Assembly (NCBI GenBank): GCA_022478985.1
Contig: JAKSZP010009458.1
Location: 1-64,000, forward strand
Length of the DNA stretch: 64,000 nucleotides
Source: Massospora cicadina
Taxonomy: Eukaryota; Entomophthoromycota; Entomophthoromycetes; Entomophthorales; Entomophthoraceae
Reading direction: 5' to 3'
The first letter of the stretch is position 1. Each line of letters opens with the position of its first letter. Below the pieces are notes generated by a model, which had not been told where the DNA came from, did not search any database, and saw only the letters and a program-made list of their open reading frames with translations. Of the stretch, positions 20,926 to 46,468 are shown one piece after another. The translations under genes and the position numbers were made by a program.

Positions 20926-20999
20926 GCTCGCTTATCTCTGTTGGTGAGAGTGTGGTGCTAATAACGCCTAAGTCACAGGTTCAACCCCAGTAGTGAGCA
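20926..20999 (+). tRNA. tRNA-Ile (anticodon AAU), possibly degenerate
   Basis: A 74-nt cloverleaf can be drawn. The acceptor stem GCTCGCT/AGTGAGC pairs at all 7 positions (one G-U), the D loop contains TTGG, the anticodon loop is CTAATAA, and the T loop is TTCAACC with B box GGTTCAACC. GTGCTAATAACGC matches the yeast tRNA-Ile(AAU) anticodon arm. A T-run follows at once as a polymerase III terminator. Two stems carry one mismatch each (27-43 T/T; one A/A in the T stem). The A/A would become a proper pair with the base found in the retrotransposon primer-binding sites, so this copy may be mutated. Confidence 0.75.
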
Positions 21000-21007
21000 T
21001 TTTTTCT
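21000..21007 (+). terminator. RNA polymerase III terminator
   Basis: A run of T residues begins directly after the discriminator base of the tRNA-Ile gene, the usual polymerase III stop signal. Confidence 0.65.
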
Positions 21008-21369
21008 CTTCGCTATAGTCATATAGGTGTAACTTCTCACTGTTTATTAAGTTTAAATTCCATTTACTTTGTTCCTTTTACTTTTTTATTTTTGCTTTAA
21101 AATCTTACTTCAATTCTTTTTCTTTTTTATTAGAATCATCATCCCTTTTAAAAAATCCATCCCTGAGGGCAATCCTCTTTCCCCCTCTCTCACTCACTGC
21201 AGCTGCAGCTCCTTCTGTGGCATCAAATTAGGTTATGTCTTTACTAAATGTACAGTAGTCAATATTTTCTTATGTACTAAGTCAATCAACCTTGAATAAT
21301 GGTTCAATGTTCTTCTGCTCCAGTATATAACCAATCAAATTCTGTAACTAGCATGTGTTTACCCATTTT

Positions 21370-21981
21370 CAACCCATACAATTCTCTTAAATAAGTCATT
21401 GAGATAAAGGCAAACCTTTTCTCACGAGCTCAAGTTTGATTTCCAGAATTATTTTGGCTTCCTAGACCTACTACTCCATTCCATATCTGCCATTGCCCAG
21501 GCTTTATGGCATATTGGACCACATTATTAGCTCATTGTTGAGGCAGCTGCCACCCCACCAACATTCCCCCATCTACTAAGCTCTCTATGTAGCTATGGAG
21601 CCAATTGTCAATGGAACCTTATCCTATTTTACCATAAGAATCTTGGATAAGTCCAAGATGACATTGTAAACTTCAAAGTTGCCACGTGTTACATGTGCTC
21701 CAATGCCATCAAGATGGCAATGGTTAACCCCAACTACTTCAAGCATGTCAATAATTCAAAAAAATTTCTGTATCACAGAACACATAAAATATACTGAGCT
21801 TCAGATTGGCTAGTGTGTTGAGGCAATGCACACAGCATGCTTAATTAATGAGGATAATATGACTTCATTCTACCCTCTCAACATACTGATGATTTCACCA
21901 CTTCCATTTGTCTAACATGACATATGTCCTCAGTTATATGCCAAACAAATAGTCCTCAACCTACTTTCCCCTTCTGATATA
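21370..21981 (+). pseudogene. family 2-like ORF1-only element K, left part, split by element E
   Basis: The plus strand near 21680-21740 reads CYMCSNAIKMAMVNPNYFKH, which matches the family 2 block ACINAAKTSLFNPNYPKTH (40.8 kb, reverse). It ends CTTCTGATAT at 21980, and element E follows. The text resumes at 48488 with ATATGGCAGCTTGG. The intact family 2 copy has CTTCTGATATGGCTTCCT at the same place, so E inserted there. The 5' limit is not clear. Confidence 0.65.
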
Positions 21982-22905
21982 TGTCAGGGACTGGTATATT
22001 ACTGAGCTGGCTGGTGGTAGCTAACCATGAGCTAGCATATTCAAGGGTTTTGATCCAGTATGACAAGGACACTAGAGGCGCCCAGATATAAGAAATGTTG
22101 GGTATTTTGGTATGGTAGTTGCCTACAGATATGATTTTAAGAGGGTAAAGGTGGAAAAGAGTCTCTTGTAGGTTGGTGTGGTAGATCAGAATTAATAACT
22201 CTTTATTAAATATCTTTAAGAAGATTTTCATAGTATAAAAATACATTTATTGACCACAAAGATAAAACATATGAATGTCTTAGTTATATATCTCACCCAG
22301 CTTCCTGGACTAACCTAAACTTAGTTGATTTTTGGACATAGTATTCTTCTTCTTCTGAGCTTCTATAGTTGCTCCTTACATATGATTTAAAGTTATTAGG
22401 GACCACCTCTGTAAGGACCCCAGCTTCACCCATAAAATTGTTTGGTTGATTCACCCCTTATCAAAGAAGGGGAATGTTCCTGAGCCCTTCTTTTAAAAAT
22501 ACCTAATTTAGGGCACACCCTTGACAAGCAGTGGGTTTCTACTGAGCCCCCTCATCTTGATTTAACAACAACTTAAATAGTGGAAGGGGTTGATTTTTAA
22601 TGAAATCAATTCAGCCAAAGCCTATATCATAAAAATAGAAAAATATGCAACAAAACCTAAGTATGATTGGGTGAATCAAGACTGAAGTCCTGACAGGAAT
22701 GCTAGCCCAGAAATCAACCTTGAAAAGATCCATCAGAGGATAAAGAAATTTTTTTTAGAAAATTGTTAGATATGATGGCATGATGGAATCCTGACAGAAG
22801 TGAAATTTCAGAAACATGAACCGCAAATTGAGGCACCCAAAATGTCTATGCTGATCCATGAGCAAAAAACCCAGCATCTTTGAGAATATTCGTGCATCCT
22901 TTTTT

Positions 22906-23221
22906 CACTAGTGGTGCCCAACCTAAAATGGGGAGCCACCACGCATCTTTATTTGTAAATAAGCTAAACAAAGGGATCATCATAAATTAAAAATATCCCA
23001 ATATGGCACCTCAGCCAAAGTCCTAGGAAGCCATATAAGAAGGTAAAGAAGCTTTGTGGAGACTTTTGTCCGGTCCCACTTTAGCTGGCAGATCATGGTT
23101 GACAACATTTGTGTAGAAGCATCAGCGATATGTGGCATATTGAGGTATAGTTTTGGGTTTTCTTCATTTATGAGACCAGTGGTGTTTATTGCCTCAACTT
23201 ATTAAGCAATTTGATGCTCAA
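22906..23221 (-). mobile_element. 5'-truncated family 2 retroposon
   Basis: From the 3' tail (CACTAGTGGTGCCCAACC on the plus strand) it aligns for about 315 bp with the 3' end of family 2 at 40435 and 59561. It stops abruptly inside the C-terminal domain, as expected for target-primed insertions that end early. TTCGTGCATCCT and TTTGTGTTCCT on the two sides may be a worn target duplication. Confidence 0.75.
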
Positions 23222-23439
23222 ATGTTTGTGTTCCTGTTGTAAAAAACATTTCACAGTAACTACCCCTCTTTTCCCTTCAAATATAAAAACACAGTGCTCT
23301 TAGGATGGTAGAGTGCTGGGTTATATTGTCATATCCTTTATAAAACTTTAAATTTGCTAGAATTTCTTATTTTTTTGTAATATATTAACTAGTCTGGATG
23401 TCCCAAGGGAATCACTACAACCAATAGAGGGTCCTCACT

Positions 23440-24187
23440 CATTTGTATCATTAATGATCATGTCTGTATCATTGGTTATATCAGAGATTGCCATTCTCAG
23501 TGCGGAAAATCTTAAAAGTTGTACCCTACAAGTTTCCCATAATTCTCCTGTTCATAATAATGAATATTGAGAGTATCAAAATGAGTTTAATAACCAACCT
23601 CTCAATTTAATATGTCATAATTATAAAGAAAATAAAAATGATAATTCAGTGGTCACTACATGGGGAGACATCGATAGTATTAAACCTGAAAAAGAATTTA
23701 TACCCCTCAGTACCAAGTGCACATTCAAAAGAATCAGGAGTATGGACAAAGGTAAGCTAAGGATGCAGATCGACCCATCACTCAATCCAATCAACCCTGA
23801 TCATGGAGGAAATGGGATGTCAATTTGATGGATGCTACTCAAAGCAAAACTGTTGGGATCAAACCTTATTAAACAACTGTTACTGCACATTATCAAACTT
23901 GTATCCAAATGAGTCAGGAGTATGACCCTGAATGCAAATCTTGGATGAATAGAACAATCCCCTCTTGCTGACAGTGGCAGTTTAACCATACTCTAATCGT
24001 GGTCAATATTAATACCAGCACTCAGCTTAGTAATCATAGCAAGAATGATGTTGTTAGACTAATAATTTCTGCATCTATCCTTGTGTTGTTCTTATTCACA
24101 TATTATTATTTTGGCGATGCCTTGTGGACTTTAAATCCTATCATAGGTGGCGGATTACCCCCTGATGGAGGACAAGTCTTTTCTTAG
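23440..24187 (+). pseudogene. cysteine-rich single-pass membrane protein remnant in element F
   Basis: Three plus-strand frames together read as an extracellular-type region with many cysteines (CQFDGCYSKQNC, then CYC, TC, EC and SC). N-glycosylation-like sites follow and then a hydrophobic stretch, LIISASILVLFLFTYYYFG (about 24060-24115). A short tail ends at a TAG at 24185-24187. Such a layout recalls envelope-type or receptor-type proteins, but I recognise no family. Several stops and frame breaks make it a pseudogene. It lies entirely inside F. Confidence 0.4.
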
Positions 24188-24415
24188 AACATCAGTTGTC
24201 TTACAAGCTCAATATCATTGAAAATACGTTTTTTACAATTGGTTTATTTAATATCATCATAATAAAAGTAAAATTAAGCGATTAAAGAACTAATCTTACT
24301 GCAATTATGGTTTGGTATGCAAGTAATAGACCTAAATTAACACATATCTTCTTGATCTGGCGGATATAATATTTGTAATCTAGTAATCCAACTTATGTCA
24401 GGCTTTACTCTGACA

Positions 24416-25950
24416 TTATTCCCACCAGGGCTGAAGCTACCTGCTAGGCCTTCTTCTTCCATGTCTTCAACAGCTTGTATGCATTCTTTAAGTTCTCCTT
24501 AGGCCCTCAAGTGTTTTTATTCTACGGCATATCCAGCCTTCTTAACCAGAAATTTCACTTTACACAATTCTTACGTCTGCCATTGATGCCTCTACCTCAT
24601 ACTAAGAACATGGACCATCAATTAGAGGGGGAGCTTTTAAGTTTCTGATGTAATAAGGAATACCATCCTTATTATACATGATTGATTAATGAAAAACATC
24701 ATGATCTTTTATCCTTCAAGTAGAGCGACTCGGTAGGCAACCTTCCCAATGACCTTCTTTATTAGATATTATCCTACACGCCAATGGGCAAGTTTCCAGC
24801 ATAGTACATCCTAAGGAACATCGCATTCATCCAGATAAAACTTACTTCCAACTTCCAATGTCTTCCCGGATTCTATTTTTTATCTGAAATGCTTGTAAGT
24901 CTTCACTGCTCAAGTTAAGTTTACTAGACATAGTTCATGGGTCTGGTAGATATCCTTCAGAGAAGCTTGCTGATGGGTTATCAGCTTCATTACTTGGCAG
25001 CGAATTCTAAGTCACATTATGACTTTAGTTAGCTTTAAATGGTTACGTTCCAATGAAGTAGTGGTCTATGTTGTTGTAGCAGAACTGTGGCATTAGTAAC
25101 AGCTTGATTTAAATATTCTAGTCAGCATTCACGTAACCCCTCAGGTATTGCTACAGCACCTGATTGACCCGCTCAGTTTGTTCATCTGTATTGGGGTGAT
25201 ATGCAGTAGACAGGTATCTCTTAATTCCAGAGCTTTTTTAACCTGCTTCCAAATTCTGAAGTGAACTGTGAACCTCTATCAGAATAAATTCCTTGGGTAT
25301 TCCATGATACAAGAAGGCTTTTTTTGTAATAGCTGGACTGTTTCTTTTGCTGTGACATTGGTGGTCTTAGGAATGAAGTGAACCATTTTTGTGAGCCATT
25401 CAACTATCACCAATGCTGCATTATACCTCTGAGACTGGGGCAACTCAACTATAAAATCTATAGAAATTGACTCCCAAGGATCTGAGAGAACTTTAATAAA
25501 TTCTAACTGACCTTAAGGATGCCCCTCCTAATCTTTTTTAAAATTTATTCAAGGTGGGCCAACCTGAGGACAATACCGCACCAATGAGGGGAAGTGAAGA
25601 AAATGGGAAAGGAAGATAAAACACAGAAAACCTCCATGCGCAGCTCATGATAGGCCAAGAACTCCATGGACCGCCTTTTTGCTATTCGCTATCTTGGTTT
25701 GGGGCATTGGTGCGCAACTCAAACACAGTAATAATTGTCCCCTACCCAAAGTTCATTACCAGGATTGAACTCAGGGAGGCAGTGGTAGAGGTCCTTATTT
25801 CACCACTGGGGTATCCTCCCCTGCCCCTCCTAGTCTTAGTACACTAACAAAACTCACATCATGCCAGGTACTTCCTGACATCATTAACTAACCCAGACCA
25901 ACGGTAATTTCTTTGGATGAGTATTACTATCTTTTTATTTCTAAGATGTC
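24416..25950 (-). pseudogene. element E integrase remnant, split by a SINE
   Basis: On the minus strand the zinc-binding part MSGHLRNKKIVILIQRNYRW and the cysteine pair CEFC (about 25880-25850) precede the SINE at 25536-25821. After it the core reads PWESISIDFIVELPQS (about 25475-25430, first catalytic D), WLTKMVHFIP and YSDRGSQFTSEF (about 25290-25250, second D). Near 25190 remnants of the block with the catalytic Glu (QTERVNQ-like) appear out of frame. The enzyme is broken by stops and shifts. Confidence 0.82.
25536..25821 (-). mobile_element. tRNA-derived SINE, copy 2 (286 bp)
   Basis: It aligns along its whole length with the copy at 1008-1295. A 16-bp target duplication with one mismatch (TGCCCCTCCTAATCTT, 25520-25535, and TGCCCCTCCTAGTCTT, 25822-25837) flanks it. 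The B box reads GTTCAATCC on the minus strand. Its AT-rich tail (minus strand) carries the LINE-type 3' end. It lies in the element E integrase between zinc finger and core. Confidence 0.92.
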
Positions 25951-26079
25951 CAGACATGCCTGAGTCATGTTATTCACATAATATTTTAATCATTGGGACC
26001 TTTCAGGCATAAACATGCATTTCTTCCAACAGACCAAGTGTCCTTTTAGAGGATATTCTTTCAGGTGCCATCTGCTATT

Positions 26080-26620
26080 CAGTTTTGGCTCAGGTCAGCT
26101 CCCACACCTTTACAAAATGTATCCTCTTTCTGGGCCTTCGAGATGTCATCATCCCATCTCATAAGAATTATGAGATAGAGCTGATCCACTGGGTTTATGT
26201 CTTTAGTAAAACCCTTGTGTTATATTCTGTAATCTCCCCTTCTTCAGGCATCAAGTTAGGGCATCAACTTAAGGATTCTAGGACCATATTAACCTTCCCA
26301 GGTTTGTATTCAATTTTCAGATCATAATCAGCAAGGATAGAAGCCCGTCTAGCTTGTCACTGATTTAGATGCCGAAGAATGAAGTATGTCAAGATCTTAT
26401 GGTCAGTCATGATCTTCACGAGGTGCTTTGCCCACACAATTACCATCTCCAGTGTTTCAGGGTCTGAACAATTGCAAGCATCTCTTTGTCATAGATGGGG
26501 TAGTTATGTTCAGCAGGGAAAACCATCTTGGAATATTAGGCCTTAGGATACAGCTTACTATAATCCCCCTCCTGTAATAAAACCCCTCAAGCGCATATCA
26601 AGAAGCATCAGTATCAACCG
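26080..26620 (-). pseudogene. element E RNase H remnant
   Basis: The minus strand reads HLVKIMTDHKILTYFILRHL, then QARRASILADYDLKIEYKPG and LMPEEGEI. These are the TDH...L, QAR...L..Y.F and PGK motifs of Ty3/gypsy RNase H. Reading is mostly in one frame with two stops, directly upstream of the integrase. Confidence 0.8.
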
Positions 26621-27479
26621 TAAAAGGCTTGCCATAGTTGGGCATTGATAACATTTTTGCATAAACAAAGGCAGCCTTTGAAACAGAAACGATTTTACTG
26701 TTGTTTGTTACCATTTATATGGAACATTTTTTGATGTAATCCAAGTAAGGGTGTCAGACATCTTTATGTTCAAGATGGGGTAAAGAGTAATTTGGATAGA
26801 TTACCTTCAGTACTGCGCAAAAACCCCTTATTGACTCTCAGTGGAATCCCTCAAATTAAGGTAGTATTCTACCCAAACTCCTCAGCCAAATAGCCCTTTT
26901 TGAAATTAGTAGGGTTACACCAAACCTGAGGTAGAATCATAGGGGTCATTCTGAGGTTCTCCCCGTCATGTCTGCAATTTAGTTTAACTCCTAAGCAGAA
27001 ACCACACCCTTTTATAGACCCAAGGGGATTTAGGGGATAAAATTATTTTTACCACCAATCATCAACTAGGAGCTGTGGTAATCAGCTGAACTACCAACCC
27101 TTGCCAGATAGCTGATTAGCATTTTATAATAAAATGCCACCTATTGTTATGTCATTACAGGAGTTGATCTTGTACCTACAATATAAGCTTTATTAAGATG
27201 ATATGGCTCTCCAGACCAATGAAAGGTTAAATCATCATTTATCCAAATTGGGAAGCCCCTTCTCATATTCTGAATTCCGCCGCCCTTCTCATTTTTAGCT
27301 TCAATTAATTTGAATATAAGGGGTCAACATTACAATAGGGGATCACTTTTCCCCCAATATTACTGACTAATAAAAAGTTATTATATATAACATCTCTTGT
27401 TTTATTAAACCCCAGGGCTATTACTGCCCCCATTTCTAATATTAAACTTTATTTTATTGTAATCAATTTAATCCATTGA

Positions 27480-28510
27480 AATTCTTTAATAACAGATGAG
27501 AGTTCCAACACTCCCACGCCTGCTAAATTGTTGAAATCCTGTGCAAGAGCACTGGCAAGCATTGTCCTTGACAGAATTCCAACAAAGGGTAATGCAATAG
27601 AAATTTTTCCTTTGATAAACCTGAAATAGTTTTCTAAGCCTAAAAACTGCGAATGTCCTTCCAGCTATTAGTTTAGGCCAAGATGTAATGTTATCCACTT
27701 TTCTAGGTGTCACGGTAAACATATTCCTGCCCACATCATACAAAGAAATATGACTTCCTCCTGTGCAAACTCACATTTTGATAGCTACAAACGAAAGTTG
27801 TATTTTCCAATCTGCTCAAAGGCTAAATTCAAGTGCAGTAAGTGTTCCCCCTGAGCATTGTTATAGATAAATTGTCATAACGTAGGTTACTCTGAAGTCG
27901 TCCATGTAGCCACCAGCACCTTATTAATTATTTGTTGAAATGTGATAGGTGCGTTTAACAACCTAAATGGCATCACCAGATATTCTAGTACCCATATCAT
28001 GTCTTAGATGCTGTTTTCCAATCATCACCTTCTTTTATTCATATCTGGTTTAATGCGTCCTTTAAGTCAACTTTGAAAGATATTGTAGCTCCAGAAAATT
28101 GGTCACTCAGATGATCAGCATTAGGTAAGAGATACCGTTTCTTTAAGGTTATATCTTTGATCATATGGTAGTTTACACATGTCTGTAGACCATCATCCTT
28201 CTTACTAACAAACAACAAGGGCGATGAACTGGGATAACAGAACTTCATAAAAACCCCCTTTCAAGTATTGTATCCAGATTTCTCTCAGGGAAATTTGTTC
28301 CCTTTTATTGCAACTGTAAATAGGTCCACGGGTGGGATGCTTCCTTTCTATTAAATAAATTGTGTGATCAAATGATTCTTGAGCTAGTAATTGCTTAACC
28401 TTCTCCTCTCCAAACATTAAAACCCATTTTTGAGAGATACTTAGGAATCTTCCTTTTGTATGGCTCCAAAGGCCACCCACAAAAAATGGTGAAGAAATTT
28501 CCAACCCTTT
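27480..28510 (-). pseudogene. element E reverse transcriptase remnant
   Basis: SSSPLLFVSKKDDGLQTCVN and ITLKKRYLLPNADHLSDQFS (28230-28090) are RT motifs 1 and 2, followed by FKVDLKDALNQI with the first catalytic Asp. The palm with the YADD box (about 28000-27890) is only faintly readable. TPRKVDNITSWPKLI (about 27700) is the connection before the thumb. Frame breaks separate the parts. Confidence 0.8.
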
Positions 28511-28639
28511 ATACCCTTCTAACGCACACTCATGAGATTATCCTTCAGCTTAATTTGATAGAGTTCCTATAATGTGCTGGAGTTCGCTTTTGTCCACCAA
28601 GGATACTAAAGAATTCCAGGATGTGGTGAACTAGGCAGG

Positions 28640-28840
28640 ACCCAAGACTCAACTTGCATTTCACTTACACCAAACTTCAAGTCAATTTGATGTAAGCATT
28701 GTAAAGCTAAAGGCTGCTTATCATTTCCCAAGGTTACTTTCATCAAGGGCTTCTTTGCACGCAAGCCCACCATTTTCACTGCATGCTCTAAGTTGAAGAT
28801 TGTGAGGCCCCACTGTCCAGAAAAGCCATATTTTCAGTTT
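28640..28840 (-). pseudogene. element E aspartic protease remnant
   Basis: Near 28830 the minus strand reads AFLDSGAS, the retropepsin active site D-S-G-A, followed in another frame by VTLGNDKQPLALQ. It lies between Gag (28845 upward) and reverse transcriptase, as in other Ty3/gypsy elements. Confidence 0.7.
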
Positions 28841-28844
28841 TTTC

Positions 28845-29118
28845 CTAATATTTAAATACACACTTAATATTATATAATATTCTTATTATTTTTAATGAGG
28901 AAATAAGGGTCTGAGGTTTTTCCTTGTGGTACATTCGATCCCAGAATTCTCCTTGTTTGTCAATACCCAATATAAGTCTCTGAGTGATCTCAATAACTTT
29001 TTTAAGGATAGCGTGATGGGGTGTTATATGATCAAATCTGCTAAGTGAAATTATAACCCTTTGTTGAAGTAAAGCACTCCATTTCCTCATCTAATTCTGC
29101 CTTTTGAATGATCTCCAA
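28845..29118 (-). pseudogene. element E Gag, middle and C-terminal part
   Basis: The minus frame reads RFDHITPHHAILKKVIEITQ and QGEFWDRMYH, typical of the Gag region after the capsid core. It rejoins, across the family 1 insertion at 29136-30854, a frame reading INFQQEGQIFEEYTHKF (about 30935-30880), and further upstream, across element D, the capsid start near 39700. Confidence 0.7.
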
Positions 29119-29562
29119 GAACTTATGAGTATATTGATATATTCAGATTTATTTGAGGTAAGCTGACCAGGGGACGGACATTACTGAAACTAAAAATTAA
29201 AATAAAACCTAACATAACTAATTGATTCAAACAAAACGCCCAAACTGAGTGGATTGAATGATACACACCAAACGAAAACAACCAACCAGGTGGGGCAGTG
29301 GAAAGCTGCTTATCTGACCATGACGGAAGGGGAGGGAGGATTGGGGGGCTCAATTTTGACAGAAGCTTCCTCATCCCAGAGTAGGGCACAGGTCAAGGTG
29401 GAGAGCAAGGGTGTCAGGGCATTGGTGGAATGTGGTTCAATATCACTAGTGATTGGTATCTCATGAAAATTTCCAGCTATAAAATGGCGCTGATATACTT
29501 GGCTAAAGCTTTTTAGCTTTAATGTGGGCGTCTGGGAGTTTAATAAATGTGGTAATATTGGT

Positions 29563-30027
29563 TCAGGTAATTTTAGATTTAGGATTTTTTGCTTCAGTTA
29601 CCACGTTCTGGATAGCGTTGTTGACATCTTTATGTACTTGATTTATTGTATTATTACTTTGTAGCGTGAGGGTTGAAAGGATAACAGTAGGGGGAGTACC
29701 CCCTGTGAGCATTGCCACTGATTTAGTGACAGCTTTGCGGAGGGGGTGACAATATGACGTGGCAGCTGCTTTAACTGCAAGCTGGTGGTCACTGCAAAAT
29801 GGGTCAGCATTTAGATGTGGGGCATATAAATAAGGGAGTATTTGGCGCCCATTCTGAATTAATGAACTTCTTAATTTGTAGAGATATTTCTTTTTTGAAA
29901 TTACCTGAATTGTCAATTTCAGCCAATAACTCCACATGGGTTCTGGTTGAATTAAATTGGGGAATCGGTGTATGGCTGAGCTTTGGTTGGTTTGTTGGAG
30001 GAAGCATGGGAGTGAACTGGGGTCCAA
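29563..30027 (-). pseudogene. family 1 copy 2 C-terminal domain
   Basis: A 154-residue minus frame contains PYLYAPHLNADPFCSDHQLA and CHPLRKAVTKSVAML, matching the second half of the family 1 element at 15400-15500. It ends near 29563, before the 3' tail. It is open but probably frameshifted relative to ORF1. Confidence 0.6.
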
Positions 30028-30090
30028 GTTGGTGCTTGATTGGAGAGAGCATATATGGCACTATGGCGAGGAGGAGGCTGATTGGTGGCT

Positions 30091-30700: not shown

Positions 30701-30998
30701 TGCCTGAGCTATTAAGATAATGGCTTGGTCATGTTAAGGGAAAAGTTTCCCATAATTTATCTAAGGCTGAAACGCTTGTTGCTCTGGGGGAGCACCAGAG
30801 GGCAACAAGGCACCACTTGGGTACAAGCAAGGTGGGCGTCGAGATCCTTGGAAGGAACTTATGAGTATATTCCTCAAAAATTTGACCTTCCTGTTGAAAG
30901 TTTATCAGGGCAATCCTCGCCTATAATCTGGTAACAGTGATAGTCACAGCAGCTAACAACTGGTATTTGAATATCTCAGAACTGGGAATATATTCAAC

Positions 30999-31528
30999 TG
31001 TCCAAGTTTTACATTATCAGGGCAATAGGAAATTAGTCAACTTGCTGAGGAATAAGAAATAGAAAGGCTCAAAGCTATAAATCCAGGAGACAGGATATTA
31101 TTCAACAAGTATTTATTGAAGAGTCACTTAATGAAAGTAAATTGAAATAATCTTAAGATAAAACAAGTAATTTTTTTTTAGTACTAGATGGTCCCAACCC
31201 AAGGGGGGGATAAAACAAGTAATTTTAATTTTGTTAAAACTTTGTATAAAAATAGAAATTTGGGATTGCCTTTGACAAGGTGGAAGTCTAAGCTCTCTTC
31301 ATACAGGATCTCTCATCAACCACTGTTTAGATGTTAATTTAAATGATTTCCTAGAGGAAATTATAAGTTGTCCATTTATATCAAAGGCTGTAGCTTTGAG
31401 TTAGCTGAATATTCTGCAATTTAAGGATCAGGTGTATAAGCAACTCCTTCATGAATTTATCTATCACCAGGGAATCTATTCAGGAAGTAGAGACAATCTT
31501 ATCTCCATTATTATCCTGATGTCTGACA
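30999..31528 (-). repeat. element D 3' LTR, with a micro-insertion
   Basis: It ends (plus strand) GATGTCTGACA, so it begins TGTCAGACATC on the coding strand, next to the purine-rich GAGGGTGGGCG. It contains the 34-bp insertion at 31175-31208, which the other LTR lacks. Confidence 0.82.
31175..31208 (-). mobile_element. micro-insertion of a family 2-type tail (34 bp)
   Basis: GATAAAACAAGTAATTTT is duplicated at 31157-31174 and 31209-31226. Between are a T-run, AGTACTAGATGGTCCCAACC and seven G. The sister LTR of element D has the uninterrupted site (GATAAAACAAGTGATGG, about 39277), a direct empty-site comparison. Confidence 0.93.
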
Positions 31529-31599
31529 ACGCCCACCCTCAAGATCCTGTTGAAGAGGGACATAGGGCATAAGAGATTGAGCATGAACTCAATTGACTA

Positions 31600-35549: not shown

Positions 35550-35930
35550 AGGTATCCAGAGCGTTACACAATTGCTGCGGCATTTTGGTGGGCTCAAACA
35601 ATACTTCATTGGAGGTTAGAGCACATTTAGGTTGGTATTCTGGTTCCAGTTATATTTGTCAATAACCATTTTCTAGATCCACAGCCAAAAATTATTAGGC
35701 ACCAGCAAGTAACTGGAAGAGAATTGTCAATGTGAGTAAGGGGATAACTATCCTTATTAGTAACAGCAATAAGGCATTGGTAGTCCATCACCACTCTATG
35801 ACTACCATATTTTTTCAGACTAATAAAAGGGGTGAATCCCAGGGACCACGGGATGGAACCAAGGACCATAATATCCAATAACTGTTTAAGTTCAACTGTC
35901 ACCTGAGCTTCTTTGACCTTACTCATTCAT
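35550..35930 (-). pseudogene. element D reverse transcriptase remnant
   Basis: A minus frame reads ELKQLLDIMVLGSIPWSLGF, FISLKKYGSHRVVMDYQCLI and NKDSYPLTHIDNSL. These are the N-terminal RT motifs of Ty3/gypsy. The palm near 35700-35560 is frame-shifted and the YLDD box was not found. Confidence 0.78.
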
Positions 35931-35999
35931 TATTGTCAGGAGAGAAGTGGGATGCTTCTCCAGATCTACTTGATGTAATTCACCATTCACTTTACCAAA

Positions 36000-38900
36000 G
36001 TTTATGTAGAAGTTGAAAAAGAATCAGAATATTCCTCCAATAATTGACTTACTTTATACGCTGATCAGTAGTCAGTCCAGGACCAATGGAAGGGCTAGTA
36101 TGGTCAATGGTCAGGGATGTTCAAGATACATATCTCTTAATTACCCAAATCTTTAAACATCTTCTACTTTGTCAATAGCCAAGGGCAAATGAAAGCAATT
36201 GGGTATTTGGTCCAACATTCGTTGAAGTATCTGTTAAGGTTTTAATAAAACCAGAATAGAACCAGCATATACAGGATCAAAAATTTCCAGGACAAGTCAA
36301 CGCTTCTCTTACCAAAGGTTTTTGATGTCCATGAATTTCTGATAGTTGTCCAGAAGGTATAGTAACATTTATTTGAATATACACAATAATTTGAGAATTG
36401 GGAGGAACAGCCATTGCATTGGGTGAATAGAGTGGCATACCTTAATACCCATCTACTTATTTAGAAGACAGTCAGACTTTAGACCCACGTACATGATACT
36501 CTACCTGATTGATATTTTTCAAGTAGACATGACTGAGCTCAAATTTCAGTTTCATCAGGAGGAGTTTCAGAAATAATTGGCACTTAAATGTCTGAGGAGA
36601 GAAAACTTACTTTAACATAATTGATAATAGCTACTCAATCCCCTAAAATTGTGTACTGAGCTTTAATTCATAACTTGAATTATCTAAGGCAACAGTGGAG
36701 GTAGGTATCAATAATTTTCCAAATTGTGTAGGTAAGGACGAGTATGCTCTAATAGCTCAAGTGCAGAGAGGACCAGAGGTTCCATACTCTGTATAGTGAG
36801 GTACATTTGAAGTCATCATAATCCGCTTCATAAGTTTGAAAAGTATGTCATTGACAGGTGAGACACTATCCACAAGGTTTAAAACTGGACTATTCTGAAC
36901 CTTTACTGTTATTTGAGTCACTAAGCTACTAAATTTTGGGGGCAAAGTGAAGAACATAGATGTCTCATCTACTGAGGAATAAGATAATTTTAAAATCTTT
37001 AATATTATTTGAAGACCTAATAACCCCTCTGATTCCAATTGAATAACTTGCTCAATACCATTAGGTAAATAGGCTTAGGTTGAGGCTTAGTGGTATCGTC
37101 AACATGAAGAGCCTCATCCTTCATATTGACCCCTCTTTAGTCCGCCATATCAGAATGTAGTTTCCAACAATTAAGTGCCTGATGATGATTCAATTACAAT
37201 TAGTACACCAGATCTCCTTTTTTTGACTCTACTGCATGTACTTTGGGTCAGTTAGAGGTGGTAGAACTTTTGTGAACCCATGTCAACAGTGGGATTTCGA
37301 TAAAAACTTCCTTAATATCTGGATACAACTAGAATTATGTTTCAGGCCAATCATATGGAGTTTGAATTCAGTACATTGTTCTAAGGCTGAAATTACTGCT
37401 GTGATTGCATCATCAAATTAATTCTCTTAGGAGTCATCAAAGGTAGAGCACTGGCAAAGAAATGGATAGAAAAATACAAGGGACTTTCTCACTTGTTCAA
37501 CCAGATGCCTATAAAAGCCTGCTTCTAGCTCAAAAGGATTCAAACACTTCCAAAAACTTAAAAATGAGCTTTTTAAACTTATTTACAATATTGGTATTTC
37601 CAGAGGTGAGGGGTCATTATCTCTTGGGCAGAACTACTTAAAACAGGAATAAATATTTTTGGCCTTTTGATGGTCAGTTTACTCTTCCATCGCACTCTCT
37701 AAGTATGCAAAAATGAAGCAATACTCTTCTATCCCAGGACAAATTTTTATTTTGAAACAAGGTCTTAAAGAAGAAGTTGCCAGCGCTAATAAAGTATTAA
37801 TGCACTTGACCATGCTAGAGGAAGAGTATTCAATGTCAGTTTCACTTAGTGGAGTCTTAATGGTTATTTGTTATCAGATTGTCCTTATTTCTTTTTGAGT
37901 TTCTCTCCAAATTTGATCTGATGAGAATGCTGAAGCCTTTTGATTAAGCTGTTCTTTCAAAGTCTGAATCTCAATTTGATGGGCTCATAATTGAGCTTCA
38001 CATTGGCACACTCAGTCATCAAGGCGTTTACAGCTGTCATCTAACTAGCTTATATTTCCATCAACAACTTCAATAAATGCAGCAAAGTTAACCATTTCAG
38101 CGGACAAAACACTCAAAGTAAGTCGAGGGTCAAAATTTCCATTGAGAAGGACCTTGCATCCAGTAGTCACCTTTTCCAATTGATACTTAAGTTAGCTATA
38201 ACTTTGGATATATCTTTTTGACACGAACAATCATCAACAGATAAGGGGTAGCTGGTCCTGAAAGTCCTGAATGGCCCTTCTCTTCAATCTGATCTGGAAG
38301 GACCTTCAGGCCCCCTGGGCCCAAGAGCCCTTCCCCAACGTCTTGTTGGGTCAGTTCCTGACAAAGTTGTTGCAAAAATCATATTGTGACTTCAATTTGA
38401 TTAATCCTCTAAGCCCAACCAACATCATGTTCTTGGACTCTGTGATTAAATTGATCAAGATACCCTGAGATCCAACTATTAGTTAAGGTAAGTTGTATTT
38501 GAGCTTCATTTATCAAGTGTCAGTTGTCCAGAATAACATCTCTGTTTTCACAAACACAGGCTGAAGCAGTATTATAAAAATTTATCACTGCCAAGTGTAA
38601 TTCGTGAGACATTCATAGTTGTCTGTTTAACTCAGAATGATGTAATCTAAGGATCTGAAGAAGATGATGATGTAACGCGTGATATAAAAAATGGAGAAGA
38701 TAACAATCAGTACCCATTACCAAATAACTAGCCGTTAATTGGTTTGTCCATACAATATGCGCAGTGTAGAGGGCACCATGGAAGCTCTGGAGCAGAGATA
38801 ACGATCTCCATTGAAATAAAATAACATTAAGTAATTGCTGAATTGTATTTCCAAAATCTTTGACATGAACTCAATACTGACGCTGATCAAGATTAGGAAC

Positions 38901-39060
38901 AATTAATTCCAAAGTAGCCTGGAAATACAAGGCTTTAGACTGCAAAAGAGTTACATTGTATTTATACGTAGTAACCATTTAGTCACACTTCTGGAATGAT
39001 CATGTGTATTTTTTAGACTCTCGTTGTCAATAGCGTGATGGACGCTTTTACTTGCAACAG
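36000..39060 (-). pseudogene. element D protease and Gag region, heavily decayed
   Basis: This is the expected place of Gag and protease between the primer-binding site (39071) and the reverse transcriptase. Minus-strand frames such as 37038-36757 are open, but I recognise no motif with confidence, and no intact zinc knuckle or D-T/S-G box was found. Confidence 0.4.
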
Positions 39061-39070
39061 CTTGGAGCTC

Positions 39071-39086
39071 CCTGTAATGAGCACCA
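39071..39086 (-). other. element D primer-binding site (tRNA-Ile type)
   Basis: TGGTGCTCATTACAGG on the minus strand abuts the 5' LTR. It is complementary to the 3' end of tRNA-Ile(AAU) (AGTGAGCA plus CCA) with one C-to-T change. Confidence 0.78.
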
Positions 39087-39087
39087 C

Positions 39088-39598
39088 TTTATTATCAGAA
39101 CACGGTAAACTAGTCAACTGGAAAAGTTTGATATTTCTCAAGGAAATGGGAAAGTAGTCAACTGGCCGAGATATCAAAAATAAGAAGGCTCAAAGCTGTA
39201 ATGTCATAATACAGGATATTATTTAACAAGTAGTTTTTGAAGATTTACTTAATGAAAGTAAATGAAATGATCTTAAGATAAAACAAGTGATGGTTATTTT
39301 CGTTAAAACTTTGTATATTTATAGGAATTAGGGATTGTCTTTGATGAGGTGGATGTCTAAGCTCTCTTTGTACAGAGTCTTTCATCAACCGCTGTTGAGA
39401 TACTAAAATCAGGATGATTTCCTAGAGGAAATTAGAGGTTGTCTATATATCATAAGCTGCCACTTTGAGGGCAGTTAGGTATTCTGAAAATAAGGGCTTG
39501 TTGTAGAAATGAATTCCTAATTAATAAACCATCGCCAAGGGAGTCTAATCAGGAATTAGTCAATCTCATATCCATAAATATCCCAATGCCTGAAAAAA
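39088..39598 (-). repeat. element D 5' LTR
   Basis: Partner of 30999-31528. It begins beside the primer-binding site and ends near the TATTCAA duplication. It lacks the 34-bp micro-insertion. Confidence 0.82.
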
Positions 39599-39990
39599 TA
39601 TTCAATAATCTTCACAAAAATTATCATTCTCTTCTACCCCTATAAACCAACTCAGAGCGTCACTAGTGAGTTGTGAACACAATGCCATAATTTTCTCATG
39701 CACCATCCAAATAGGTATCAGGATAAGATTTGAAATACGCCCAACAATAGCCTTCTCTCACCTAAGCTAAAGTTAATTTCTTAAGCAAGGGTTTGTAGAG
39801 TAATTCATAGTTGTGCAGTTGGCAACATTCACTGTATGCATCTGATTGGGTCCAACTGCTTCTTTATAAGTTGTTTCATATTGCTTTACTTGGGACATTC
39901 GCACCAGTAATTGGTAACTTTTTATCAACAGGGCAGATATCAAAGCTCTGAATAATAAAAACATGGTAGTATATTAATCATAATTTTTGG
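39599..39990 (-). pseudogene. element E Gag, N-terminal part
   Basis: The minus strand reads YFKSYPDTYLDGA (about 39730) and QLTSDALSWF (about 39670), the standard capsid start (F...P.....A....KI..L...L.G.A..W). The remainder continues across element D at 30998-30872. It lies immediately inside the 5' LTR of E. Confidence 0.72.
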
Positions 39991-40557
39991 AGGTCAAATT
40001 GTCAGGAACTAGTATACTACTGATCAGTTAGAGGGTATTTAACCGTGAGAAAGCATAAGTAAGAGATTTTAGCTAGTATGACAAGGACGCTAAAGGCGCC
40101 CTGGTACAATAAATGGTGGGTATGTTGGAATGGGAGTTGCCTACAGATATGATTCCAAGAGGAAAAGATGGAAGAAAATTTATGTAGATTGGGGTGGTTG
40201 ATCAGGAAGAATAACTCTTTAATAAAATAACTTTAAGAGAATTTGCATAGTATAAAAATACATCTATTGACCACAAAGATAAAACATATGAATGTCTTAG
40301 TTATATATTCTATCCATCTTCCTGGACTTACCTAAGCTTAGTGATTTTTAGATGTAGTACTAATCTTCTTCTGAGCTTCTAGAATTGCGCCTTGCATATG
40401 ATTTTAAAGGTAGTAGGAACCGTCTCATTATCATATTTTAGTACTAGTGGTGCCCAACCCAAAAGGGGAGTCACCACGAATCTTTATTCTCAAATGGGCC
40501 AAACAAAGGGATTATCATAGATTAAAAAATTCCTAATATAAGCCCTAGGTTATCAGC

Positions 40558-41070
40558 CTAGGAAGCCATATCAGATGGCAAGTAGGCTTTGAAGAAACTT
40601 TTGTCTGGCGCCCACTTTAGCTGGTAGACCATGGTGGACATAATTGGGGTGGGAGCATCAGCGACATAGGGCATAAGGAGGTATAGTTGGGGGTTTTCTT
40701 TGTTAATGAGGCTGGCGATGTCCATCGCCTCAATGTATTGAGCAAGTTGATGCTCAGCAAAATTGATGAGAGCTGGCACACAAGTAAATGACTTGATGCA
40801 CCGGTGGGTTTTGGGATAATTGGGGTTGAAAAGAGAAGTTTTTGCTGCATTGATGCAAGCACTGCTCGCATCAAAAGCAAGCTCCTCGATTTCATACTTT
40901 ACATCTTCCTCAAAATCATGAGGAAAATTGGGGATAGGAATACCCTCAACAAGGGGCTCCATTGCCCCATGGAGTTGGCGGCAGAGGAGGGTATTGGCCA
41001 GGGCAGCTGCAGCCATAACTACCATATCATTAATATTTTTATAAATGGGAAACCCATTTTTTTTGGACAA
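40558..41070 (-). CDS. family 2 C-terminal domain, open frame (170 codons)
   Basis: This is the best preserved copy of an uncharacterised domain: IPIPNFPHDFEEDVKYEIEE, then CINAAKTSLFNPNYPKTH, FAEHQLAQYIEAMDIASLIN and DAPTPIMSTMVYQLKW. The last block matches family 1 (EAM...DAPTP), so two tail families share the domain. The composition is helix-forming and acidic and shows no catalytic motif. It may multimerise or bind the element RNA or the LINE enzyme, but that is speculation. The start is uncertain because an upstream frame (41249-41019) overlaps it. Confidence 0.6.
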   Translation of the reverse strand: MSKKNGFPIYKNINDMVVMAAAALANTLLCRQLHGAMEPLVEGIPIPNFPHDFEEDVKYEIEELAFDASSACINAAKTSLFNPNYPKTHRCIKSFTCVPALINFAEHQLAQYIEAMDIASLINKENPQLYLLMPYVADAPTPIMSTMVYQLKWAPDKSFFKAYLPSDMAS

Positions 41071-41079
41071 AAACAGTGG

Positions 41080-41716
41080 GAATGTGATTTGGGAGGGTCA
41101 ATGAAGAACTCCTCCAAAGCAAAATTGGGTTTCATGTGACATGGCTGTTCATCCTCCTCAATCCATTTGAGAGCCTCAAATGGATTGGATTTGGCTAGCG
41201 CTGGGCCAGCCACAGGAATTAGGGGCTGTGGCCGGAGCTGATTGGCCACATGCTGTCAACCATGGCAGCTCAGCTGAAACTGGTTCAGCCATTGACTCGA
41301 GATTCCAAATTCTGGTCAAAGTTCCAAAATTTTTAGATTTTCGTAAATTTAGATTGGTTGCTGCTTTGGAAGCAGCGCCAGAATTCCCTGACGTTGGGGG
41401 TGATAGGATTGAGCCCAATTTTAAAAATTGGGTTGAGGCAGCCACTGGGGCAGCGCCTGAGCCCAGAGTGGTGGATGCAGCGGAAGCAGCAATGGTGGGG
41501 AACTTTCACTTTAAGTGGTCAATTTTGAAGCACAAGGGCAAATGGTGCGGCCATTTTTGATGTGCGTCCAGAATTGGCGATCAGGGCAGATCTGATCACG
41601 GCACAGGGGGTAATCATGAGATGAGAGTTGCAACGAAATGGGTGGATCATTGCAAAGGTGCGAGGCCCTGCCAACTAATCTGCCCCATTAAGAAAAACAA
41701 ACTGCAACACAGGGTC
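41080..41716 (-). pseudogene. family 2 middle coding region
   Basis: Minus-strand text reads PCHMKPNFALEEFFIDPPKS (about 41140-41085), found again at 56440-56500 on the plus strand (VKLHFASEEFSVDPPN). Before it, an Ala-rich stretch (AAATNLNLRKSK region, about 41370) has low complexity. It links ORF1 to the C-terminal domain, and element C interrupts it at 41717. Confidence 0.6.
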
Positions 41717-42854
41717 TGTTAAGTTTTCAGCCGATGGTGCAAGCTAAAATGGCTTAACAATAAATTCAAGGATAAAAACTTGCTTTTCAATTAAAACTCC
41801 TGCTTGTAATTGGGAAGTAGATTTATCAATAATCCCAGATAATAGCCTAGTAACTACGGTACTCTCACCATTCTTTAGTCTACTGGCAACAACAATTATG
41901 AGACCTTCTGTCTTCATACAAAATTAGGAAATTATTCCTCTTTAATCTGGACTACTTCTCTGGCAAGTATCTATATACTTCTCTTTGGGAAGTATAAATG
42001 CATACAACTATCTAATATATATGTAAAGGCTACAGATACATGTATCAGACAGATGACAGATGGATAACAATAATTAATAAATTAAGCGACAGTAGTTATT
42101 AATGATCAATATTTAGATGGTAAATGATGATGATTTATTAATCAGCTAGGTGCCGGTACTATATAACTCTTGGGCATCTCCTGGCTGAACTCATCTATTA
42201 GATGAGTTCATTCATATTATGCCAATCCTCTGCTGGTCATGGCAGTAATTATAAAAAATCCCCAAGTCAATATAAACCATGAATTGACTAAAAATAACAA
42301 TCATTTCAGCCCAAAAGAAGGCAACTTTACTCTTGTAATAGGGATGATTTTGGGTTGCAAACTCAACAACAAAATCTTCCTGATTAGAGCTATGTCATAA
42401 CTCGACGTCTAACAATAAATGGGGAATAAAATATATATGAACATAAAAGATGACGCACCCCTAATTGGGACATCAGCAGGCCTCTCAATAGCACTAAGTA
42501 TGCCCTTATTTGGGACATCTATGTTTAAGTTCTTAATAAATCAATTTCATTAATAGAACCCAACTTCCGCCTTAATACATTAAGATTAGTGCACTTTTTA
42601 GGAGGTGCAATTTAGTTAATGATGTGAGACCACTTTGCACCCAAGTGGACCCATAATCAGCCATAATATAATTATATCAAAGCTATCATTAGCTATGATA
42701 ATTGGGACAATTTAAGTAAAATTGAGGTGGTTTTGGAATGAATTTAGTTATGCAGATAAATCAGGAAAGATCAAAGGAACCATCAATGGGATTAATCTAT
42801 TAGCATTGATGGTTTTCTTAAGGGTTTTTTTGAGTCAACCACCAAAATCTAACA
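41717..42854 (-). repeat. element C 3' LTR (1138 bp)
   Basis: It aligns with 46472-47610. The last ~430 bp (42421-42854) are nearly identical to the partner, while 42200-42420 is clearly more diverged. It begins TGTTAGATTTTGG on the coding strand, directly after the polypurine tract. Confidence 0.93.
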
Positions 42855-42866
42855 TTTCCTCCCACT
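42855..42866 (-). other. element C polypurine tract
   Basis: GTGGGAGGAAA on the minus strand lies directly upstream of the 3' LTR, the priming site for plus-strand DNA synthesis. Confidence 0.8.
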
Positions 42867-43382
42867 TGACTAAAATATAAACACTAAGTTTCCCACTTCT
42901 TTCTTCATATTTGTAAACAACACCACTTCAGCATATCAAAAATTTGTCACTGCTCTTATTTCCAAACAATGTTATCATTTTAACTAATTTGACCAAACAT
43001 TTTATATGAATATGTTTTCAGATTGTTCAAAGTCCTGGATAAAGTATCATATTATTTTTCTCCATTTTTAATGATGTCTATTTGGCCCTGTTTTTTTCCA
43101 TTCAACTGCTAGATTGGGCTAAATTGGCTCACGAAGATATTGAATTAGTTTCTGAGTCACCTCCCCTTGAAGCGGAGGAATAAAATTCATTTTTATTATA
43201 AAAATTCACAATTTTTCTATTTTGGAATACAAAATCTTATTTTTTTTACTATGTATATAGATGATAAATAAACTTTTTTCTTTTACTACTATTATATTTT
43301 TTATATTTTTTTCTCATAACTATTATTTTCAATTATTTGTATATACTTATGTTTAATTTTTCTCTTCTAATTGGCTCGCTTC

Positions 43383-44403
43383 CTAGATTTTCCTTTGGAA
43401 TTTAGCATGGACTCTATTATAGACATGCCCCAAATTTTTCTCCTTAATAGTATAGGAAAATTTTGAAGTTTTCTCTATAACATCAAATGGGTTAACCCAA
43501 ATGCTATTTAACTTGTGCATTTGGCCCAAACCATGGGTATTACAAAATAATACTTCATCTCCCACAGCAAATTTGGGCAGATCATATCAGGTTTTATGAT
43601 CTTTTTCATGTCAGGCCTTACAAAGTTCAAAGTTATTCTTGAAAGCCTGGGCTTGTAGTCTAATTAAGGTTTCTGCAAGCCTCTTGACATATTGAGAATA
43701 ACTCAATTCTTGGGGTTCTTGTAGCAAGGAATATATAATGGCGGTAAGGCTGGATGCTTCCTATATAGAAGTTTAAAAGGAGACATCTTTGTGGCCAAAT
43801 GGTAAGAGATGTTGTAAGAAAAAATGGCCAAACTGAGGAATGTACTCCATTTGAAGGGCTTCTGAGAAGTCAGTTTCCTTAGGATATTGACAAGTGTTCC
43901 ATTAACTCATTCCACTGCACCATTTGTTTCTGGGTGGTATGAAGTTGACAGAACACCATGCACCCCCATTAATTCATTGAGCTTCTGAAGAATAAGTGCA
44001 GTGAAATTTGTGCCATTATCCATTAATATGAATTGAGGACATCCATGCCAATGAATAACTTGCTCCAAGATAAATTAGCAGTTGTTGAGGCTCCTAAGTC
44101 CCAAATAGTCCTGGCTTCAACCCATTTCATCAAGTGATCGATTACCACAATAATATATTTGGCTTTTGCATTGCTGGTTGGGAGGGGTCCAACCACATCT
44201 ATGGATATAGTGTGACAAGTGAATTTGGGCCGAACAAGCTGGTATGAAGTAGCTTTTTGAAAGGGTTTTTCCCCTTGGCACTCTTGGCAACAACTCAAAG
44301 TTTCTTGGATATCAAAATGCATCGATTCCCAATAGTAATTTTGCTTGAGCTGCTCCTTTGTTTTCTTAAAGCCTCCATGGCTGGTGGCCTTATGAGCAGC
44401 CAA
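43383..44403 (-). pseudogene. element C integrase, few breaks
   Basis: 44403-44023 reads ATSHGGFKKTKEQLKQNYYW and CCQECQGEK (HHCC zinc binding), then SIDVVGPLPTSNAKAKYIIV (first catalytic D). Downstream in a second frame [20 protein letters not shown] carries the second D, and [17 protein letters not shown] the Glu block (about 43930). 43565-43383 (VLFCNTHGLGQMHKLNSIW) is the C-terminal region. Only a few frame breaks separate these, so inactivation is recent. Confidence 0.87.
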
Positions 44404-44519
44404 AATTAGATTTGCTCAAGCTGAGGGACGTGGAAATATATATTTCTTCCCATCAATAACCTTGAATAAGACTCCATTTTTAGTAAGAATATCCTTACTT
44501 AATTCAGAGAGAATTTTTA

Positions 44520-44870
44520 TCACTTATTCAGGCTCAATGGCAAAAAAACTCTAACCATCTTCTGAAACAAGGCATCCACAGGCTGGCAGAGGGTTGCCAC
44601 GACGGGCAGACGGGACAAACAATCAGCATTCTGATGCTTAGCACCAGCCCGGTGCTTGATGATATAGTCATAAGCTTGCAGCTTAAGTGCCCAGTGAGCC
44701 AAACGTCCTTCTGGCTCCTTCAAGTTGTTAAGCCAGCTCAGGGATGCATTATCAGTAACCACAGTGAAATGCACTCCATGAAGGTATACTCAGAATTTTT
44801 ATAAGCATATATAACTGCTAATCACTCTTTTCTGTCACAGTATAATTTCTTTCATGGGCATTTAGGGTCC
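44520..44870 (-). pseudogene. element C RNase H
   Basis: FTVVTDNASLSWLNNLKEPE, then GRLAHWALKLQAYDYIIKHR and GAKHQNADCLSRLP are the complete motif set of a Ty3/gypsy RNase H domain in one open frame (44774-44520). The N-terminal portion above 44775 is frame-shifted. Confidence 0.87.
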
Positions 44871-45075
44871 GACTTACATAGGCTACTGGGTGCTCTTCAC
44901 TATCTTCTCCAACTTGGGACAAAACGGCTCCATCCGCCATTAATGACGCATCTATTTAGAAATAAACTCCCGGTCAAAGACAGGATAGTGCAACACTGGT
45001 GCAACTAATAAGGCTGAATGGAGGTGGTCAAATGCCTCCTGGAAGGCCAAATTTCACTCAAATGAGACCTTATCC

Positions 45076-46000
45076 TTAAGTAGATAAAATAAAGGTTCTC
45101 CAAATTGAGCAAAGTTGGCAAAAAAGGCAATAGTGCCCAATCATGCCCAAAAATACTTGAATATCCCGCTTGGATTTGGGCCTCTTCATTTTAGATATTG
45201 CTTCTAATTTGGCCGGTTGTGGCTGAAGACTTTCTTTATCAATTACAAACCCAAGGTATTCCAGCTGGTCATTAAAGAATTGACACTTCCAAGGCTTGAT
45301 CTTTAAGTTTGCAGCTGCTAACCTCTTGAAAACCTCTTCCAGGTGTTCCAGATATTCATCAAAGGTATGACTGAATATGTTTATATTGTCTAGGTATACT
45401 AGTACACATGACAATTTAAGATCGGTTAGTATAGTATCCATCACTTTATGGAAGGTTGCTGGAGAATTACAGAGTCCGTGGGGCATCCTCGTTGGTTGAA
45501 ATAACCTTTCTTGTGTAATAATAGCGCACTTTTCTTTCTCAGCTTTGGGCAGATCAATTTGCCAATACCCGCTATTTAAATCCATTGCTGAGAAGAACTT
45601 TATACCCCCAACCTGTTTAGGGCATCGTCAATATGTGGAAGAGGATAGGAATCCTTTTTGGTAATGTTATTAAGCTTCTGGTAGTCAATAACAACCCTGT
45701 TGCTCCCATCTTTCTTTTTAGAATGAGAATTGGGGCAGCCCACAGACTCTTAGATGTCATCAACATACCACAGTTGAGAAGTTCCTTAATTTCCTTTGAC
45801 ACAACCTCTTCAGCAGTTTTTGAACGCCTAATTGGCCTCAATCAGATAGATAAATGGTCCCCAGTATCTAATGTATGCGTTACTCCTCTTGCACATCCCA
45901 GGTCAAAATCATCCTCAGCAAATATCTCATGGTATTTATCATATATCTCTCGAACTCAGTCCTTTTCCCAATCATTTAGTTCCTCTTAATTGGCAACAGG
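45076..46000 (-). pseudogene. element C reverse transcriptase
   Basis: The start is at about 45990 (WEKD..REIYDKYHEIF), then RPIRRSKTAEEVVSKEIKEL (45841). A frameshift near 45700 leads to MDLNSGYWQIDLPKAEKEKC (45585), MPHGLCNSPATF and CVLVYLDNINIFSHTFDEYL. The YLDD box reads YLDN, a loss of the second catalytic Asp. It continues KPWKCQFFNDQLEYLGFVID and FLGMIGHYC. It is nearly full length. Confidence 0.9.
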
Positions 46001-46451
46001 TATGGCATTATGCACAAAATAACTCATCATTGGGAAGCCCTAGCTCATCCAGGGTTCCAAAATCGTGGAAAGATTCAATCTCCATTATAAGAATCAATTG
46101 GAGATAGGCAACCACCTGGTGCCTTTTAATAAAAATTGGCTGATTCTGCATTTTTGCACAGATGACTTTTATTTCTTGATGTCCAGGAATAGTTTACCCA
46201 GGCGCCACATTAGGTTTGAGTTGAGTTTGGGACCAGGGTTGATAAACTTTGCCATAAAGTCCTTCTGGGATTTTATATTTTTAGCCCAGTTAATATAAGC
46301 TCTAATGAGTACTTGTTCCCTTCCTCATTGTCAGAATGATTTGATATAAAAATTTCAATAAACTGAACATCTCTTGTTTCCATATCATTGTTGCTGTATT
46401 TTCTGACTTTTCTGAAAGCTCATTGCTTATGTCCATATTAGATAGTTGATC
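46000..46451 (-). other. element C leader without Gag
   Basis: About 450 bp separate the primer-binding site from the reverse transcriptase. Only short minus-strand frames are present (starting MDISNELSEKSENTATM near 46435), none resembling capsid, zinc knuckle or protease. Gag and protease appear to be deleted. Confidence 0.6.
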
Positions 46452-46468
46452 CCCTGTAGTGAGCACCA
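46452..46468 (-). other. element C primer-binding site (tRNA-Ile type)
   Basis: TGGTGCTCACTACAGGG on the minus strand follows the 5' LTR after 3 bases. It pairs with the 3' end of the tRNA-Ile gene at 20926-20999 plus CCA, with a single mismatch. That base is the one that breaks the tRNA gene's own T stem. Confidence 0.85.

Follow-up and report, generated by a model that had tools for sequence, protein, structure and literature searches.

Which transfer RNA (tRNA) primes the long terminal repeat (LTR) retrotransposons of the fungus Massospora cicadina, and can the primer be named from DNA? The question arose from a stretch of 64,000 nucleotides (nt) of contig JAKSZP010009458.1 (GenBank assembly GCA_022478985.1, positions 1 to 64,000), here called the window, which carries a tRNA-Ile(AAU)-like sequence and primer-binding sites (PBSs) assigned to the Ty3/gypsy elements A, C, D and J. 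Priming by tRNA is a known mechanism. The Massospora cicadina MCPNR19 assembly spans 1,488.88 Mb in 19,694 scaffolds, the longest of 1,107 kb, and 92% of the genome was described as transposable elements, 73% of those being LTR Ty3 (PMC9584336; here and below, papers are cited from the portions of their text available to us). An initial annotation had proposed that the elements of the window prime on tRNA-Ile(AAU) and not on initiator tRNA-Met. We consider it very probable that many LTR families of this genome prime on mature tRNA-Ile, and that copying has at times run past A58, read inosine-34 as G and been re-primed in the leader.

The annotated PBSs were found where they had been placed, all on the reverse strand. 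The sequence CTGTAGTGAGCACCA occurred at 46454-46468 in C without mismatch, at 7933-7947 in A and 39072-39086 in D with 1 mismatch each, and at 12974-12988 in J with 2. With up to 3 mismatches it was found at 9 places in the window, compared to a mean of 1.12 in 100 shuffles. The tRNA gene itself fared less well. A tRNA-like sequence does lie at 20926-20999 on the forward strand, but it contains several non-standard pairs and scored 39.6 bits for Rfam RF00005, where an intact sibling reached 60.8. ARAGORN gave zero tRNA calls in the window at default settings and, with introns allowed and thresholds lowered, only noise among the matches listed. A genome search for tRNA-Ile-like DNA returned 46 candidates, 40 of which were scored and corresponded to 40 places; 30 were made into loci, including the window copy, and ARAGORN called tRNA-Ile(aat) in 21 of the 30, the window copy not among them. 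Thirteen of the loci (L011-L023) were identical intact tRNA-Ile(AAU) genes. Since the window copy differs from these at 6 positions (10, 14, 20a, 43, 57 and 63, in our own numbering from the printed sequences), it is most likely a decayed pseudogene. Considered as a functional gene, it did not show intact stems and an A box, with changes at 10, 14 and 63.

One of these differences links the copy to the PBSs. Base 63 is A in the window copy and T in the intact genes, and it is at once the base that breaks the T stem and the single mismatch to the PBS, as had been noted from the window. The sibling predicted to fit the site perfectly does exist, in the form of the intact genes. The 3' end of the intact genes, CCCCTGTAGTGAGCA, with CCA added, is complementary to the PBS of C over 18 of 18 bases (46451-46468), so that the 15-nt match first described is present and in C is longer. 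The 3' end CTGTAGTGAGCA is carried by the 13 identical genes and by two other loci (L010 and L024), while L025-L029 differ from it by at least one base.

The same site was then counted in 1.47 Gb of the genome, in 16,968 contigs (from C1, 1,107,499 bp, to C16968, 10,011 bp), with the window as C8187. The exact tRNA-Ile PBS 15-mer occurred 29,375 times (14,766 + 14,609) and its reversed control 0 times; about 3 would be expected by chance, by our own arithmetic for an even base composition. A scan of viral contigs for the PBS 18-mer gave 0. We read 46 PBS sites from the places listed, all on contigs C1-C11, in which the 15-mer is present by selection. Bases 16, 17 and 18 matched tRNA-Ile in 43, 44 and 43 of these sites, and base 19, opposite A58, in 9. 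A match that ends after base 18 is the edge that would be expected from a stop at 1-methyladenosine-58 (m1A58), the known cause of the 18-nt PBS (PMC13191261). CA was found 1-4 nt upstream of the PBS in 41 of the 46 sites. The upstream sequences formed 11 single-linkage clusters, two of them large (19 and 13 sites), and therefore several candidate LTR families appear to share the tRNA-Ile primer.

Some PBSs run past A58 into tRNA-Ile, back to nt 27. A 29-nt pattern for nt 48-76, allowing up to 3 mismatches, gave 195 places in the genome (91 + 104) and 0 for the reversed control; these places include tRNA genes and a palindromic group. From the first places among the 195, a chosen part was fetched (those with CCA and only a few of the palindrome group); with PBS sites from the T-loop search described below, 84 PBS loci were examined. 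A locus was classed as read-through if nt 37-48 matched at 9 or more of the 12 positions, and by this rule 41 of the 84 loci were read-through copies and 43 were below the threshold. PBS sites followed by a GGGGTTCAACCCC-like palindrome (e.g. L111-L116 and L118-L128) were not classed as read-through. L109, L154, L161, L171 and L189, with G34, and L157, with T34, were left outside all counts; by eye, they look like read-through copies with indels. The 41 copies carry the post-transcriptional CCA, with few exceptions that differ by one base, and continue into an LTR-like end. As these copies of tRNA-Ile reach the anticodon and are joined to CCA, they name the primer directly.

Within the read-through copies, A58 was changed in 7 of 41, compared to 7 of 492 at other A positions. 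These changes may come from misreading of m1A, with few groups of copies behind them. A57 or T56 in these copies had been considered as a copying error, a view set aside in favor of presumed CpG decay, the same changes being found in tRNA pseudogenes. Across the window (1-64000) the CpG observed/expected ratio is 0.32, a depletion such as methylation-driven decay would give.

The inner end of the copies is sharp. In an ungapped reading of the 41 copies, 39 matched the tRNA at nt 27, 7 at nt 26 and 3 at nt 24. Alignment to an ordinary relative was possible for ten read-through loci, and in these about 11-163 nt of leader, a figure that for some loci depends on the relative chosen, were lost directly after the PBS, with the flank resuming from the junction. 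Two of the loci, L147 and L163, have similar LTR ends and differ in the length lost, a sign that they may have arisen separately. A stop at a modified G26 would account for the edge, and N2,N2-dimethylguanosine-26 (m2,2G26) has been reported in many tRNAs (PMC11417395). Another explanation is that the 26|27 edge was made by recombination at an inverted repeat or at ACCA in the leader, and we regard this as possible, though the less probable of the two. Nt 27-33 are the exact reverse complement of nt 70-76 (7 nt), at 6 of the 10 junctions an ordinary relative shows ACCA, where the tRNA copy ends AGCACCA, and in L190 the tRNA-Ile copy seems to lie between two facing LTR ends, as fold-back or inverted joining would give. 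Recombination of this kind does not readily explain why 39 of 41 copies share a sharp edge, including L133, L148, L150 and L167, whose relatives are without ACCA. Both causes may act together, with the stop giving the 3' end and the microhomology giving the priming site. A separate idea, that CACCA is a general second tRNA-binding motif, was dropped after it was found in the 40 nt that follow the PBS in only 6 of 45 ordinary sites.

The base at position 34 bears on the template. In the ungapped reading, 35 of the 41 copies had G, 3 had T and 3 had A; allowing one-base indels by eye (L117 and L176), the counts were G 37, T 2 and A 2. The A-to-G change at base 34 (35 of 41) compares with 3 of 533 at thirteen other A positions, and a G34 copy was found in 21 of the 24 clusters into which the flanks fall. 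By contrast, A34 was present in every one of the 33 CCA-less tRNA-Ile genes and pseudogenes that were read. The presence of CCA in the copies and its absence from the genes indicate that the template was the mature tRNA. In nuclear tRNA-Ile of eukaryotes, A34 is normally edited to inosine. The simplest reading of G34 is, thus, that inosine-34 of the mature edited tRNA was copied as G, the base as which inosine is read in tRNA sequencing (PMC11417395). G34 could instead stem from a tRNA-Ile(GAU) gene, an origin that we find quite improbable. The assembly is incomplete in short contigs and our tRNA survey scored 63 of 86,732 candidates, both of which leave room for such a gene. However, a G34-bearing query made of the tRNA 5' half and anticodon region found 35 places in the genome, of which 34 had A34, 1 had T34 and none had G34; the 13 identical genes all have A34, and the usual eukaryotic editing of A34 also speaks against a GAU gene.

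We give next to no credence to the possibility that these sites are primed by initiator tRNA-Met or another tRNA and match tRNA-Ile by coincidence. In plants, full-length tRNA-Met is the primer used most often (PMC6317226), and a tRNA-Asn PBS does exist in this genome. Against this, the initiator tRNA-Met 15-mer occurred at 5 places (reversed control 2), compared to 29,375 for tRNA-Ile. The initiator tRNA-Met pattern had 6 exact places and 1 with a mismatch, and all 4 that were fetched were called tRNA-Met by ARAGORN. A T-loop motif combined with the exact tRNA-Ile 3' end was found at 50 genome places, namely 20 tRNA-Ile genes or decayed copies and 30 PBS sites (CCA follows in 28, and one base differs in 2), and no other isotype with this 3' end was among the 50. 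The read-through copies reach the anticodon region of tRNA-Ile and refute another primer for sites with this 15-mer. The initial annotation had named two refuting conditions, a better match by another tRNA and sibling genes with a different 3' end; within the reach of the searches made, its choice of tRNA-Ile(AAU) over initiator tRNA-Met was supported.

Nevertheless, tRNA-Ile appears not to be the sole primer of the genome. The tRNA-Asn 15-mer was found 1,145 times (597 + 548; reversed control 0), and at L034:523-540 (contig C3747) an 18-nt match to tRNA-Asn(GUU) with CCA adjoins an LTR-like end. Because of this match and the 1,145 places, tRNA-Asn is probably a second, minor primer, about 4% as common. 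For tRNA-Lys, Phe, Cys, Thr, Arg and Val, no PBS-like 15-mer was present within 244,533 bases of retrieved loci, tRNA genes aside.

A chance position of tRNA genes or repeats resembling short interspersed nuclear elements next to LTRs is a negligible explanation for the read-through copies: 5'-truncated tRNA-Ile copies within a repeat do exist (L030 and L035-L037), but they are without CCA and have A34, whereas the read-through copies have CCA, an LTR-like end, mostly a start at nt 27 and mostly G34. In those four loci the truncated copy is preceded by an A run and about 500 bp with 86-90% identity from one copy to another, as in a tRNA piece carried by a repeat.

Several observations weigh against the proposal of tRNA-Ile priming with read-through, an inosine footprint and re-priming. 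The 41 copies are a small set and are not independent, as they fall into 24 flank clusters. After indels are allowed, two A34 and two T34 copies remain. A tRNA-Ile(GAU) gene could be missing because the assembly searched is without short contigs. No ACCA is present in the relative at 4 of the 10 aligned junctions, and the 26|27 edge can partly be a product of the microhomology between nt 27-33 and 70-76. One locus, L155, extends beyond the nt 27 edge to nucleotide 1; this almost complete tRNA-Ile copy lies at an LTR-like end, has CCA and G34, and differs from the tRNA at bases 24 and 26. Finally, tRNA-Asn as a probable second primer counts against an exclusive role for tRNA-Ile.

The PBS match, its 18-nt edge, the CCA-joined copies, the A34-to-G difference, the 26|27 edge and the leader loss at 10 loci are features of the DNA, and we infer from them the modifications, stops and re-priming that may have produced them. 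Reverse transcription would start on the 3' end of mature tRNA-Ile with the anticodon AAU (IAU once edited). Plus-strand strong-stop DNA would normally copy 18 nt of the tRNA and halt before A58, and the PBS would be fixed at 18 nt because of this halt. Occasionally, copying would pass through A58 and the anticodon, with inosine-34 read as G, and halt after nt 27, before G26, probably owing to m2,2G26. The over-long 3' end would then re-prime further down the 5' leader, sometimes aided by microhomology with its last bases (ACCA). In this way, a 50-nt tRNA copy would replace part of the leader and be inherited from then on.

These elements resemble Ty3/gypsy elements primed by full-length tRNA in having LTRs, a PBS that starts with TGG a few nt after the LTR, an 18-nt complement and, in C, reverse transcriptase, RNase H and integrase. 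The primer, tRNA-Ile(AAU), is outside the set of full-length primers named for plants, which are Met, Arg, Lys, Asp, Asn, Ala and Trp; there, tRNA-Ile is listed solely in half-molecule form, for the Ty1/copia elements called Bianca (PMC6317226). In Bianca, too, the tRNA-Ile used has inosine in place of the anticodon A (PMC6317226). While Bianca uses a half molecule, the PBS here begins at the CCA terminus of a complete tRNA, and inosine would enter only in the rare over-extended copies. In retroviruses, plus-strand strong-stop DNA normally ends at m1A58, and over-extension is known: many strains of human immunodeficiency virus and spumaviruses carry a matching over-extension sequence, functional products end at 58, 55 or 54, and products that run past position 54 are considered unusable (PMC13191261). 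Here, nt 27 was reached and leader sequence was replaced in the aligned cases. Self-priming Tf1/Sushi elements are also LTR elements of fungi and animals; unlike in these, the PBSs here begin with TGG, for the CCA end, and match a tRNA. Work on Ty1 reportedly concluded that the primer tRNA sequence is not inherited. A search for terms in 'LTR Retrotransposons in Fungi' (PMC3248453) found no PBS, primer binding or tRNA, the available portions of a fungal Copia paper (PMC5445492) do not mention isoleucine, and 'primer binding' does not occur in those of an Entomophthora genome paper (PMC11105155). A search with most subscription journals outside it found neither tRNA-Ile priming reported for these fungi nor an inherited inosine footprint for LTR elements, which is weak evidence of novelty.

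Within the window, element C lies on the reverse strand. The 5' LTR (46472-47610; TGTTAG...TTAACA) and the 3' LTR (41717-42854; with the purine stretch GTGGGAGGAAA before it and GACCC after it) are about 1.14 kb long and 90.5% identical, with a Kimura two-parameter (K2P) distance of 0.096 and the 5-bp target-site duplication GACCC on both sides. Pfam recognized pieces of reverse transcriptase (45076-45627; RVT_1, E 1.7e-25), RNase H (44523-44789; RT_RNaseH, E 2.8e-9) and the integrase zinc-binding region (44023-44415; Integrase_H2C2, E 2.2e-13), in the order seen in Ty3/gypsy. No gag-like piece was recognized between the PBS and the reverse transcriptase, in about 3.6 kb between the LTRs of which not every frame was searched. 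A protein search with the reverse transcriptase of C gave 39 unnamed relatives, mostly on short contigs. The LTR pairs of A (aligned parts 2153-2637 and 7969-8454; K2P 0.182) and D (30976-31529 and 39095-39596; K2P 0.237) are older than that of C. Element A has a reverse transcriptase piece at 4544-4906 (RVT_1, E 5.4e-8), and Pfam found nothing in the two D pieces and one J piece tested. J had been listed as an element; its PBS-like site is present and, since an LTR pair was not found, the element itself is unconfirmed.

Other features of the window include a decayed long interspersed nuclear element (LINE) at 49126-54038 on the forward strand, with an open reading frame that gave weak zinc-knuckle and weak endonuclease matches and a reverse transcriptase piece at 51997-52410 (RVT_1, E 2.2e-18). 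A protein search with the LINE piece gave no match; L1 LINEs make up 6.3% of the Massospora cicadina genome (PMC11105155). A repeat of no assigned class is present at 22896-23220, 40436-41436, 56144-57135 and 59557-60020, in both orientations and 75-81% alike. Outside the window, tRNA-Lys(UUU) and tRNA-Phe(GAA) genes were adjacent, with no more than a few nt between them, in 10 of the 11 tRNA-Lys(UUU) loci read (L039 and L041-L049), and tRNA-Asn and tRNA-Val were adjacent likewise in L062. The two genes of each pair may be transcribed together.

For the LTR elements in this 1.5-Gb genome, the analysis names the main primer among the tRNAs tested, and it illustrates how DNA alone can prove a claim of this kind, through the CCA, the 18-nt edge and an edited base encoded by none of the genes found. 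Should the inosine reading be true, the genome records past tRNA editing, and strong-stop products regarded as non-functional can pass to later generations. We lean toward the broader view that LTR retrotransposons are a natural recorder of tRNA modification, in which over-extended strong-stop DNA, an expected dead end, would have been repeatedly rescued by re-priming and fixed, leaving footprints of m1A58 (a stop and perhaps misreading), inosine-34 (A to G) and m2,2G26 (a stop). The search is transferable to any LTR-rich genome.

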